Source of the DNA: a virus
Reading direction: 5' to 3' (one strand)
Virus record (IMG/VR): IMGVR_UViG_3300042987_001811
Coordinates: 1-23,908 of that record
DNA: 23,908 bases
In this document: one piece after another, positions 15,715 to 23,908 of the stretch
How positions within the stretch are numbered: the stretch's first letter is position 1
Layout: every line of letters starts with the position of its first letter
Notes under the pieces: generated by a model
The model's input: the letters and a program-made list of their open reading frames with translations, nothing else
Database searches by the model: none
What the model was told of the DNA's origin: nothing
Position numbers and translations under genes: made by a program

Positions 15715-16160
15715 TTTAATTTAAAAACGTAATCAGTACAGACTGCATATGGGATTATATATGATTTTTTTTGATTATAATTATCAATGTCGCCAATGTC
15801 AATTAGAGGAATAATAACATTTTCATTAATAGTCATAGAAAGGTCATGTAACCAAATTTTTCCTGTTGAGGTGTATGTAAAAGGATCGGAAGTATGACAA
15901 AAAGAATTATATGCCCAACATTCTTTTGCTGCTCCAATATTTTTACAATGTAACCACAAATAATTTCTACGTTTATCTAACCAATTATGATCTATCATAA
16001 ACTGCGGTTCATCGTGCCCCAACCAAAGTTCACCATTGATTGAACGAATATCAATTTCTACATGATACCCATTTCCAATAGCACAATCAATATAACTTGG
16101 TCGATTTTCTTTATCTGGAATCGATCCACGAATATTACCACGATGAGAAATAATAATCAC
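15711..16160 (-). CDS. Short glycerophosphodiester phosphodiesterase-like protein
   Basis: A 149-residue protein that retains the front half of the GDPD active site: HRG at residues 6-8, EN at 18-19, E35 and D37 in VEIDIR, and LGHDEPQ at 47-53. Typical GDPD enzymes are about 240 residues or more with a full TIM barrel, so this one is roughly half size but ends cleanly at a stop that overlaps the next start (ATGA). It starts with GTG at 16160 in a GTGA overlap; no ATG fits. It could cleave or transfer a glycerophosphate-type group on a glycan, or be a non-catalytic remnant. Function is inferred. Confidence 0.68.
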   Translation of the reverse strand: MIIISHRGNIRGSIPDKENRPSYIDCAIGNGYHVEIDIRSINGELWLGHDEPQFMIDHNWLDKRRNYLWLHCKNIGAAKECWAYNSFCHTSDPFTYTSTGKIWLHDLSMTINENVIIPLIDIGDIDNYNQKKSYIIPYAVCTDYVFKLK

Positions 16161-19748: not shown

Positions 19749-20440
19749 TAGTTTAATCTCAAACCTTTAGTCATTAGAAAATGCTTGTTAAAAGTCTCTA
19801 CGTTTCCAGCAATAATATCACCGTGCCTACACCTATAATCTCCTTCAATGTTGTAGAGATTTGGTGAGTATCCTTCTTGTTCTGCACAAACACCTAAAAT
19901 TCTTTCTGCACATTGATGCTCAAATACATCTTTAGTCTTCAGATATTTGGTCAAACCTTTTTTTTCAAAGTTCTTCAGAATAGAATTTTTTATAATCATC
20001 AATGGACCAAACACAGAAAAAATTTGCTGAGATGGACCTGGAACATCATACTCAGTTTGCAATAAAACACTTTCGCAAAATTGATATTGTTGTGTGTTAT
20101 GACCGATGACTTCATCAAAGTACATAAAAGATAGGATCTGGTCATCCGAATTTAAATACTGATTTAGAGACTTTTTAAGAATGAATGTATCTTGTACAAA
20201 AATATAATAGGGTTCTTCAGGATATCGTTTATAGGCTTCCCAAAGAGCACCTATTTGTCTATTATCATTTTCTTTAAAGATTTCTACATTCTTGTATTCA
20301 GAAAACCAATCAAAGTATGATCTGTCATCTGAAACGGAATCAGCAATTAAGATCTTTTCATCTGGATGAAAATGCACCATTGCATCCACACATTGTTTAA
20401 CAGGCGACTCCGGAATATATTTGCAGGAAAAGCAAAACAT
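19748..20440 (-). CDS. Putative glycosyltransferase-like protein
   Basis: A 230-residue protein not firmly assigned to a family. It has the outline of a GT-A nucleotide-binding domain: a strand ending in IADSVSDDR at residues 32-40, and IFVQDT at 80-85 in the place of a DXD-type motif. FGPLMIIKN and a C-terminal EGDYRCRHGDI segment may contribute to acceptor binding. It is separated from the GDP-mannose epimerase gene by one base, so it belongs to the operon. A glycosyltransferase role is likely but unproved. Confidence 0.6.
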   Translation of the reverse strand: MFCFSCKYIPESPVKQCVDAMVHFHPDEKILIADSVSDDRSYFDWFSEYKNVEIFKENDNRQIGALWEAYKRYPEEPYYIFVQDTFILKKSLNQYLNSDDQILSFMYFDEVIGHNTQQYQFCESVLLQTEYDVPGPSQQIFSVFGPLMIIKNSILKNFEKKGLTKYLKTKDVFEHQCAERILGVCAEQEGYSPNLYNIEGDYRCRHGDIIAGNVETFNKHFLMTKGLRLN

Positions 20441-22463: not shown

Positions 22464-22703
22464 TTACCAGTCTTCAATATCATTAGGATCAATATAACAT
22501 GGTTGGTTAGTTAACCACTTTGCATATTCAATATCTTCCATTGCTAAGGAGCACTGCATAGAATTATCAAACAAATACATGTCATTCCATCTTTTAGTAT
22601 AAAAATCTTGCATTTGAAGGCGATAATCAGGTTTACCGTTTAATTCGATTATTCCCCGCTCAACAAAACGGAAACCTTCACGTTCCAAAAGAACTTTTGT
22701 CAT
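22464..22703 (-). CDS. Small hypothetical protein
   Basis: A 79-residue soluble protein with no motif I recognise. It is rich in acidic and aromatic residues and ends with an acidic stretch (PNDIEDW). The ATG overlaps the stop of the preceding gene as ATGA (22700-22703), which supports it as a real gene translated together with its neighbour. It lies between the accessory small-gene cluster and the glycan operon. Confidence 0.7.
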   Translation of the reverse strand: MTKVLLEREGFRFVERGIIELNGKPDYRLQMQDFYTKRWNDMYLFDNSMQCSLAMEDIEYAKWLTNQPCYIDPNDIEDW

Positions 22704-22915
22704 GCCACCTCAATAGACTCAAGATCACTATAAACATATTCCATAAGCATTTCATAGTCGTCCAAAGGATCACCAGAAAATACTACACCTTCGTTTTCAT
22801 AATAGCGACGAACTTTTTTATAAAGTTTTGGATTTTTTACATCAAGGTAAAATTCACCATTTGCTGCGCCACGAAGAGTTTGAATGTCTTTCTTAAATTT
22901 TGCTGTAAGAGTCAT
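22700..22915 (-). CDS. Small hypothetical protein, promoter-proximal
   Basis: A 71-residue protein: a basic N-terminal half (TLTAKFKKDIQTLRG) and an acidic C-terminal half (DPLDDYEMLMEYVYSDLE). It resembles small conserved proteins of cyanomyoviruses but I cannot name a function. The ATG at 22915 is chosen because a sigma70-type promoter ends just upstream; any longer reading would start inside or before that promoter. The ribosome binding site is weak (AAGG 15 bases away). Confidence 0.75.
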   Translation of the reverse strand: MTLTAKFKKDIQTLRGAANGEFYLDVKNPKLYKKVRRYYENEGVVFSGDPLDDYEMLMEYVYSDLESIEVA

Positions 22916-22937: not shown

Positions 22938-22966
22938 ATTATAGGAAGTCTGTGGTTGAAAGTCAA
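22938..22966 (-). promoter_or_regulatory. Sigma70-type promoter TTGACT-17-TATAAT
   Basis: On the minus strand TTGACT (22966-22961) and TATAAT (22943-22938) are 17 bases apart, five of six and six of six matches to the consensus with ideal spacing. It lies in the only true gap of the right-hand cluster, just before the 71-residue gene. Transcription would begin near 22931, giving a very short leader. Such a promoter is likely read by host polymerase early in infection and may feed the glycan operon. Confidence 0.85.
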
Positions 22967-22968
22967 GT

Positions 22969-22990
22969 AGGACAGTAGAAAAAGTGTCCT
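22969..22990. repeat. Inverted repeat next to the -35 box
   Basis: AGGACA (22969-22974) and TGTCCT (22985-22990) form a perfect 6-bp inverted repeat with a 10-base loop containing an A-run. It begins two bases upstream of the TTGACT box and covers most of the stop codon of the antitoxin-like gene. It could be an operator, or a weak attenuator after that gene; the following minus-strand bases lack a T-run, so a strong terminator is unlikely. Confidence 0.4.
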
Positions 22991-23219
22991 AAGATCCTTC
23001 TTCGTGATCTGTATGAAGACGTACAACTTCATCATCAACAACTTGATTTTGTTCGATGAAGCAATTTACAACTTCATTGTATGGGACAATAACGGCACTT
23101 TTGTTTCCGTGCCTTAGAATAAAAGATTCTCCGCTTTCCACCCTATTCATTAGCACATCAAAATTTTTTTGAAATTCTTCAACAGTAAACGATTGAAGTT
23201 GATTAATTTCTTGTGTCAT
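22989..23219 (-). CDS. Phd/YefM-family antitoxin-like protein
   Basis: A 76-residue protein with the Phd/YefM N-terminal DNA-binding fold: SFTVEEFQKNFDVLMNRVE at about residues 10-28, then a GESFILRHGN turn and AVIVPYNEVV. The last 20 residues are polar and acidic, as in the toxin-binding tail of these antitoxins. No RelE/YoeB- or Doc-like toxin gene is beside it. The ATG at 23219 overlaps the stop of the 39-residue microprotein as ATGA, with AAAGG immediately upstream. A consensus promoter and a TGTACA palindrome precede it, so autoregulation is likely. Confidence 0.82.
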   Translation of the reverse strand: MTQEINQLQSFTVEEFQKNFDVLMNRVESGESFILRHGNKSAVIVPYNEVVNCFIEQNQVVDDEVVRLHTDHEEGS

Positions 23220-23335
23220 TCCTTTTCTTTTGAATGTATGTACATAATACCAGCAAACGGAATGATTGTCAATCCACATCCACAAAGAAAAAGAAAAAAT
23301 TGATTGGCAGCAAGTTTTTCTACGATATGAAACAT
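23216..23335 (-). CDS. 39-residue single-span membrane microprotein
   Basis: A short open frame of 39 codons from ATG at 23335, with GGAG 5 bases upstream (TTGGAGATAATATG). It encodes a short polar start, a hydrophobic stretch of about 20 residues (FFLFLCGCGLTIIPFAGIMY) and a basic tail (IHSKEKE), i.e. a likely one-span inner-membrane protein. Its stop overlaps the antitoxin-like start as ATGA. A sigma70-type promoter for the next gene lies inside it, so the coding reading and the promoter share the same bases. Confidence 0.65.
   Translation of the reverse strand: MFHIVEKLAANQFFLFLCGCGLTIIPFAGIMYIHSKEKE
23237..23246. promoter_or_regulatory. TATGTACATA palindrome, putative operator
   Basis: A perfect 10-bp palindrome with a TGTACA core overlaps the -10 box of the antitoxin-like gene's promoter. 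YefM antitoxins of E. coli are known to bind operators with TGTACA cores, so this is a natural autoregulation site. A second full TGTACA is not seen beside it. The hexamer also occurs by chance elsewhere in this AT-rich window, so position is the main argument. Confidence 0.55.
23244..23272 (-). promoter_or_regulatory. Sigma70-type promoter TTGACA-17-TATTAT
   Basis: On the minus strand TTGACA (23272-23267, perfect) and TATTAT (23249-23244) are 17 bases apart. It would start transcription near 23237, about 18 bases before the antitoxin-like start codon. It lies inside the coding region of the 39-residue microprotein, giving the regulator its own transcript besides read-through. Confidence 0.8.
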
Positions 23336-23371: not shown

Positions 23372-23461
23372 TCATTGTGGATATGCGTGTGTAAGTCCCC
23401 AGATTATTAATATTCCAATTAAACCAAAAATAGTCAGTGCTGTATATATGCGGTCATTCAT
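23372..23461 (-). CDS. 29-residue single-span membrane microprotein
   Basis: A 29-codon frame starting at ATG 23461 that overlaps the end of the 96-residue gene by 8 bases (ATGAATGA). It encodes MNDRIYTA, a hydrophobic span (LTIFGLIGILIIWGL) and a short tail ending in AYPQ. Size and design recall the small one-helix subunits of photosynthetic and respiratory complexes, but it matches none that I can recall (PetG, PetL, PetN, PsbT, PsbM and PsaM were considered). The tight overlap argues for a real gene. Confidence 0.6.
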   Translation of the reverse strand: MNDRIYTALTIFGLIGILIIWGLTHAYPQ

Positions 23462-23744
23462 CTTCTTCGTCCTCGTAGGTAGATGGTTCTTCAAAGAGTT
23501 CTTCCATTTTTTGTTTAAGAACTCTTTGTTGAAGTTCTTCTATATCTTCGTCTGTGAATCGTATCACAAGTAATGGGTCTCCTGCTTTAACGTCATTTAA
23601 CTCCGGATGTTTTACTTTTGGACTTTTTGAGTATCCCTGATGAGCATTCATAATCATCCAACCCTGAACAAACATTGATAAGGCAATTATCAAAAGAATA
23701 AACCAAGGAACCAAAAAAATTAGTTCAAAGTAATTTTGAGCCAT
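23454..23744 (-). CDS. Membrane-anchored hypothetical protein
   Basis: A 96-residue protein with one N-terminal transmembrane segment (about residues 7-30, LIFLVPWFILLIIALSMFVQ) and a cytoplasmic tail with a glutamate-rich predicted helix (DIEELQQRVLKQKMEELFEE) and an acidic end. It resembles a small protein conserved in cyanomyoviruses, function unknown. The gene overlaps the end of the upstream membrane protein gene by 25 bases and the downstream microprotein by 8, so it belongs to one transcription unit. Confidence 0.8.
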   Translation of the reverse strand: MAQNYFELIFLVPWFILLIIALSMFVQGWMIMNAHQGYSKSPKVKHPELNDVKAGDPLLVIRFTDEDIEELQQRVLKQKMEELFEEPSTYEDEEDE

Positions 23745-23908
23745 GGTAGTAAAGGTGGAATAACACCCACTAATCGGAGGAGTCCTTCAGCAAATAAAGC
23801 AAGAACCACCCAACCGACGCACATACTAATGATAGAAGCATTACGGTTGTGTCGTCGTATTGCTGCATCAATCATCTCCTGAACTTCTGAGCGTGTAATA
23901 AACTCTTC
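23720..23908 (-). CDS. Small membrane protein (partial, start beyond window)
   Basis: An open frame enters from the right edge and ends in TAA at 23722-23720, giving 62 visible residues. It begins with a helical, charged stretch (EVQEMIDAAIRRHNRN) and continues into one hydrophobic span (IISMCVGWVVLALFAEGLL), ending near PPLLPWLKITLN. The helix-then-membrane layout resembles small proteins I associate with T4-like cyanophages. Its end overlaps the next gene by 25 bases. Function unknown. Confidence 0.72.
   Translation of the reverse strand, partial: EEFITRSEVQEMIDAAIRRHNRNASIISMCVGWVVLALFAEGLLRLVGVIPPLLPWLKITLN

Follow-up and report, generated by a model that had tools for sequence, protein, structure and literature searches.

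In a cyanophage DNA fragment, the gene for a Phd-like orphan antitoxin is preceded by a putative sigma70-type promoter that lies within the coding sequence of a conserved small membrane peptide. On balance, we regard it as probable that this promoter drives phd directly in the fragment and a tRNA/phd unit in related phages, that the TGTACA palindrome overlapping its −10 hexamer is not an operator, and that the encoded protein is an orphan that neutralizes toxins.

Genomic context and orphan status of the Phd-like gene

The DNA that was analyzed, referred to here as the window, is a 23.9-kb cyanophage fragment of which the closest records are Synechococcus phages. A long gene series on the minus strand (197-22449) includes, as judged by eye, glycosyltransferases, methyltransferases and nucleotide-sugar enzymes, which suggests phage modification of surface glycans. 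Small ORFs are present on the same strand at 23372-23908, upstream of the transmembrane (TM) peptide; some are apparently membrane-spanning, and they include PHROG 1096, a DUF2973-like protein and a 29-aa peptide. The features discussed below are located as follows.

23216..23335, minus strand: unannotated 39-aa ORF with a single TM segment, a short form resembling PHROG 1184, MFHIVEKLAANQFFLFLCGCGLTIIPFAGIMYIHSKEKE, with GGAG upstream of its ATG
23267..23272, minus strand: −35 hexamer TTGACA, formed by Leu-Thr codons of the TM peptide
23244..23249, minus strand: −10 hexamer TATTAT, with TGG before it, within GGT-ATT-ATG (Gly-Ile-Met)
23237..23246, no strand assigned: palindrome TATGTACATA, formed by the end of the −10 hexamer and Met-Tyr-Ile codons, with the TGTACA core at 23239-23244
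22989..23219, minus strand: Phd-like orphan antitoxin gene, PHROG 375, 76 aa, ATG at 23219, stop codon at 22989-22991
22700..22915, minus strand: downstream neighbor PHROG 552, 71 aa
22464..22703, minus strand: downstream neighbor PHROG 481, 79 aa

The protein encoded by phd matched PHROG 375, described as Phd-like antitoxin, with an E-value of 8e-14, residues 7-75 aligning to positions 3-72 of the 74-position profile. The scores with Pfam PF02604 (26.8 bits, E-value 4.3e-6) and TIGR01552 (16.6 bits) stayed below the cut-offs of 29.8 (curated) and 20.8, respectively. Together with a Phd/YefM-type N-terminal fold described below, these matches uphold the initial annotation of the gene product as a Phd/YefM-like protein. 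Homologues were found by tblastn in 62 phage records, mostly of Kyanoviridae and S-TIM5-like cyanophages, and many of these records already carry the label Phd-like antitoxin. The window gene is of a known kind, an orphan antitoxin-like gene of cyanophages, and it resembles the PHROG 375 members of Kyanoviridae and S-TIM5-like phages in family, size and the lack of a toxin gene. The C-terminal motif RLHTDHEEGS is conserved across the PHROG 375 family. Most members show high conservation of its HTDHEEGS part, but S-TIM5-type proteins lack it; those at loci L023, L031 and L092 are shortened to about 54 aa and end without the conserved tail.

No match to ParE/RelE, PIN, YoeB or Fic toxins was found in the 23.9-kb record, and nine relatives whose records are annotated as complete phage genomes gave none to ParE/RelE, PIN or YoeB. 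The adjacent cognate toxin gene expected of a type II toxin-antitoxin system is lacking, as had been noted earlier, and the suggested check for a cognate toxin elsewhere returned none in the record or in those nine relatives. The two downstream neighbors were considered as hidden toxins and rejected. PHROG 552 occurs in 394 and PHROG 481 in 461 phage records, compared to 62 for phd, so they are not dedicated partners. When host antitoxins with the same tail were searched for, only two weak cellular relatives were obtained. Both are Phd genes beside PIN (VapC-type) genes, the latter recognized by eye from translations. A corresponding search of plasmids gave one marginal hit. Directly past the phd stop codon the window contains an inverted repeat, AGGACA...TGTCCT (22968-22990).

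A probable promoter embedded in a membrane-peptide gene

The hexamers TTGACA and TATTAT upstream of phd are separated by 17 nucleotides (23272-23244, minus strand) and give 11 of 12 consensus matches, with a TG ahead of the −10. The consensus promoter that had been described before the gene, with its −10 overlapped by the palindrome, is thus present. Three TTGACW-17-TATWAT elements occur in the window where 0.05 are expected, which is beyond chance. A second strong promoter, TTGACT-17-TATAAT, separates phd from the PHROG 552 gene (22938..22966, minus strand) and is matched by one at the corresponding position in locus L003; a third, near-consensus one, TTGACA-17-TATAAT (15774-15802, minus strand), is inside a coding region of the sugar-metabolism cluster.

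The initial annotation missed that promoter and palindrome are not intergenic but lie in frame within the 39-aa ORF, of which the stop codon overlaps the phd start as ATGA. Since this ORF has conserved homologues, the site is coding DNA. Homologous peptides are found in DSL-LC02, DSL-LC03, S-TIM5 and S-SRM01, and S-PM2 gave a weak match. Outside the promoter the homologues show a pN/pS of 0.28, which indicates purifying selection. The hydropathy of the peptide is 2.17, and no convincing match was found in PDB, Pfam or NCBIfam. The window peptide itself gave no match to the PHROG 1184 profile, but most related short forms matched with E-values between 2e-4 and 5e-7 and a long form with 8.5e-29. 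By way of these more distant members the peptide can probably be grouped with PHROG 1184. The alignment of short forms with PHROG 1184 has P..G....H in common, and this cyanophage small TM protein, which is located upstream of tRNA-Pro in some phages, shares the P-x-x-G-x-x-x-x-H core and a TM segment with the window peptide. Unlike the long PHROG 1184 proteins, the short form stops just past the motif, which is rewritten as GIMYIH by the embedded promoter. A role of the peptide as a photosynthesis/NDH subunit, raised by a gene labeled NdhP close to tRNA-Pro in S-SCSM2R, was dismissed because that gene is a different ORF.

A pattern scan for the peptide-embedded element yielded 102 viral contigs, most of them with such a TM peptide, and codon use was analyzed in 45 nonredundant loci (<90% identical). 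Because the scan pattern fixed the residues P..GIMYIH, the invariance of these residues is by construction and the informative part is codon choice only. Leucine was encoded by TTG in 40/44 cases (background 14%), threonine by ACA in 29/34 (26%) and glycine by GGT in 43/45 (42%), while the first Ile codon was ATA or ATT in 42/45. Synonymous differences per pair were 0.01 for TTG, 0.02 for ACA and 0.00 for GGT, as compared to 0.11-0.76 for other codons. Within TATWAT the Ile codon exchanged between ATT and ATA, with ATC nearly avoided. The mean match to TTGACA/TATAAT was 10.7/12, whereas random re-coding of the same peptides gave 8.07, with a maximum of 8.53. The codon biases were still seen with the 11 loci left by a 70% identity cut-off; p-values on the TM-peptide loci are optimistic due to the common ancestry of the loci. 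When the DNA motif was searched for with no constraint on the peptide, mostly unrelated strong promoters in other phages were recovered. These data place TTGACA-17-TATAAT under DNA-level constraint, which was the test for a sigma70 element. We interpret the sequence upstream of phd as a candidate early sigma70-type promoter for host RNA polymerase that overlaps a small membrane-protein gene. The embedding of a tRNA/phd promoter in a conserved membrane-peptide gene appears to be new.

Genes following the promoter in related phages

In 27 loci the first tRNA begins 19-34 nucleotides past the −10; 22 of these are tRNA-Pro(UGG) and 5 are tRNA-Ile(UAU). The phd gene often comes after the tRNA, and at many TM-peptide loci it is the next gene or one tRNA away. 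Promoter scores are 9-12 out of 12 at each of the 37 loci where a tRNA or phd lies within 1.2 kb, whereas three out of five loci without them score 7 (Fisher p = 0.0009). With a limit of 450 nucleotides the relation between promoter score and downstream content was not significant (p = 0.13), because in L088 and L113 phd and tRNA-Pro lie beyond that limit. In DSL-LC02 the peptide is retained while the promoter is gone, and no tRNA or phd follows.

The long forms of PHROG 1184 provide an independent comparison. Their motif, GMDLVH or a similar sequence, contains no promoter; where tRNA-Pro follows, one is found 69-81 nucleotides beyond the motif, at the ORF end. This ORF-end promoter scores 12/12 in L190, L193, L195, L196 and L217 and is near-perfect in L194 and L229; it is absent from most long forms that lack a tRNA. 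The contrast with the long forms and the loss of the promoter in tRNA-less loci indicate that the promoter goes with the tRNA and has been built into the same gene at two places. Counting against a tRNA/phd unit are L026 and L081, in which the promoter is present and neither tRNA nor phd was detected. In these and related loci a small ORF (MDSNSTGRKQS...), which possibly overlies a decayed tRNA, starts about 50 nucleotides downstream of the intact promoter. In L127, L087, L027 and L070 the TM-peptide copies have no downstream tRNA or phd; in the last three loci a gene further along resembles, by eye, a terminase large subunit, and the embedded promoter is degraded.

In contrast to the many PHROG 375 members that sit by tRNA-Pro, the window copy has no tRNA between promoter and phd. 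Here phd is the first gene after the promoter, with a leader of about 18 nucleotides.

Conservation of the TGTACA palindrome

The initial annotation held that the regulator and its site appear together. As a sequence the palindrome is weak when taken alone, since at least one copy was obtained in 7 of 100 shuffles. TGTACA itself is underrepresented, with 4 occurrences in the window compared to an expected 8.2, the next one being at 20193. The proposed search for the palindrome at other phage loci found TGTACA at 13/27 loci with phd and at 10/13 without phd nearby. Among the TGTACA records without a nearby phd, 24/25 lack phd over the whole contig, the largest of these contigs being 135, 118 and 98 kb. 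Conversely, 10 of the 15 phd homologues at loci L004-L018 (39-68% identity) have no TGTACA within 200 nucleotides upstream. In L005-L008 it is shifted by 3 nucleotides within the promoter, and L012 alone of this set has it in the unshifted place. In DSL-LC03 and S-SRM01, which retain the promoter, the core reads TGGTCA or TGCTTA, and S-SRM01 carries phd elsewhere in the genome, far from the TM peptide.

The Tyr codon at the center of TGTACA behaves as near-neutral, with TAC/TAT swaps in 0.48 of pairs while its neighbors are frozen. The second Ile codon is ATA in 39/45 loci with a synonymous rate of 0.14, which points to constraint beyond the −10. A DNA-level signal may therefore extend past the −10 into TGTAYATACA, perhaps at the transcript start. 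A YefM operator comprises a pair of TGTACA palindromes spaced 12 bp apart center to center (PMC7730913); here a single TGTACA is present.

Predicted fold and DNA-binding residues

An AlphaFold2 model built with 32 locus sequences had pLDDT values of 80-92 for residues 11-50 and low confidence for the C-terminal tail (pLDDT around 50). The top Foldseek matches of the model were P1 Phd, YefM and VapB46 (probability 1.00, E 0.005-0.04). The best PDB fold matches were 3hs2, 4zlx, 4zm2 and 2a6q, the top ones being P1 Phd DNA-binding domains, and the best PDB sequence match was 6jqy (VapB46, E = 0.0044). The predicted N-terminal fold is thus like that of P1 Phd and E. coli YefM. The window system differs from these two in that there is no toxin gene, the residues equivalent to R10 and R31 of YefM are replaced, the C-terminal tail is different and there is one palindrome instead of a pair. 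The likeness to Phd/VapB-type antitoxins that act with PIN (VapC) toxins, such as VapB46, is weak and restricted to the N-terminal domain; moreover, VapB-type systems pair with a PIN gene, and no PIN gene was found in the phages.

Both R10 and R31 of YefM are essential for DNA binding (PMC4803016). In the 32 aligned phage homologues the R10-equivalent position is always Gln or Glu, and the R31-equivalent position is never Arg. Since R36 of the window protein is only one position off the R31 equivalent, the loss of R31 is less clear than that of R10. The Phd-like family appears to have lost its operator-binding arginines, which is a new point. A YefM-type autorepressor should have these arginines and an operator conserved with the gene, and neither was found. 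TGTACA as a Phd operator was rejected on the combined evidence that it is not conserved, is independent of phd and occurs as one palindrome, and that R10 and R31 are replaced in 32/32 homologues. The earlier pairing of regulator and site does not hold; the palindrome is probably a by-product of the −10 hexamer and the Met-Tyr-Ile codons.

Discussion

According to the explanation that we favor, a sigma70-type promoter overlaps the 3′ portion of a PHROG 1184-family gene in frame. In relatives it would transcribe a tRNA and then phd as a later gene of the unit, and because the tRNA is absent in the window phage it would drive phd directly. The Phd-like protein would act by protein-protein contact: its conserved acidic C-terminal tail would neutralize a host toxin, and the protein would not be an autorepressor. 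Promoter conservation, coding overlap, the position of tRNA and phd, TGTACA non-conservation, orphan status and arginine loss come directly from sequence comparison, and from these we infer use in vivo, timing and neutralization. Of the roles that were initially suggested, neutralization of host toxins remains a live option and is most likely, whereas a repressor acting at the palindrome does not agree with the loss of R10/R31 and with TGTACA being unlinked to phd. Neutralization by means of the tail is argued against by the tail-less S-TIM5-type proteins and by the low pLDDT of the tail. Orphan antitoxin genes for YefM, TacA and MazE in S-CREM1, a tRNA-rich T4-like cyanophage, were proposed to counter host toxins (PMC9964418). 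They are orphans like the window phd, and their role is a proposal there too.

A dimer of the Phd-like protein could repress its own promoter by binding TGTACA over the −10, as YefM and P1 Phd do. The N-terminal fold with its matches to P1 Phd DNA-binding domains, the overlap of palindrome and −10, and the constraint that reaches the ATA codon would agree with this, as would the palindromic nature of both variants, TGTACA and TGTATATACA, and the TGTACA displaced by 3 nucleotides in L005-L008. Such autorepression is nevertheless improbable in view of a TGTACA that is unlinked to phd, occurs in records without it and is missing beside most homologues, the freely changing Tyr codon, the single palindrome where YefM has a pair, and the replaced operator-binding arginines. 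An action on host proteins other than toxins, for example mixed dimers with host Phd/YefM that alter toxin-antitoxin expression, is rather unlikely too, but less so. A dimerization domain that is kept while the DNA-binding arginines are lost is the expected make-up of a dominant-negative protein, and the S-TIM5-type members, at 54 aa, have little beyond this domain. However, dimerization alone leaves the conservation of HTDHEEGS in most members unexplained, and Prochlorococcus reportedly has no such systems (PMC5498466).

The promoter and the TM peptide have also been considered from other sides. An origin of TTGACA/TATWAT as a by-product of the TM-peptide residues, with no promoter function, would fit its in-frame position in a coding sequence under purifying selection. 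This is very unlikely considering that the re-coded peptides do not reach the observed score, that it is precisely the hexamer codons that avoid synonymous change, and that the promoter of the long forms is elsewhere yet still before tRNA-Pro. Least credible of all is a toxin-antitoxin pair formed by the TM peptide and the Phd-like protein. The two genes are adjacent with an ATGA overlap in the window and are at most one tRNA apart at many loci, but a tRNA usually lies between them, 24/25 records checked have the TM peptide but no phd, PHROG 1184 is found in 288 phage records and phd in 62, and in S-SRM01 the genes are far apart.

Neutralization of a host toxin by an orphan that does not regulate itself, which we prefer, can be extended more tentatively. 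One proposed role of phage tRNAs is to counteract tRNA-cleaving toxins of the host (PMC10264068), which makes a common promoter for tRNA and antitoxin suggestive. It is conceivable, though doubtful, that PHROG 375 is an antitoxin-derived counter-defense family that has given up DNA binding and autoregulation, is expressed from an early strong promoter shared with tRNAs, and disarms host toxins that attack translation, such as PIN-type RNases, while the tRNAs replace losses. If so, antidote and replacement would be encoded in one transcription unit. If the protein still neutralizes toxins, it would represent an antitoxin trimmed for counter-defense. Orphan antitoxins of phages are usually interpreted by analogy to toxin-antitoxin systems, operator included. 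This analogy fails here, since the palindrome appears to consist of promoter and codons and the DNA-binding residues seem to be gone. For a compact phage genome, the comparison suggests that a tRNA promoter can be accommodated within the gene for a membrane peptide, and that its location there differs between lineages, with two places in use.
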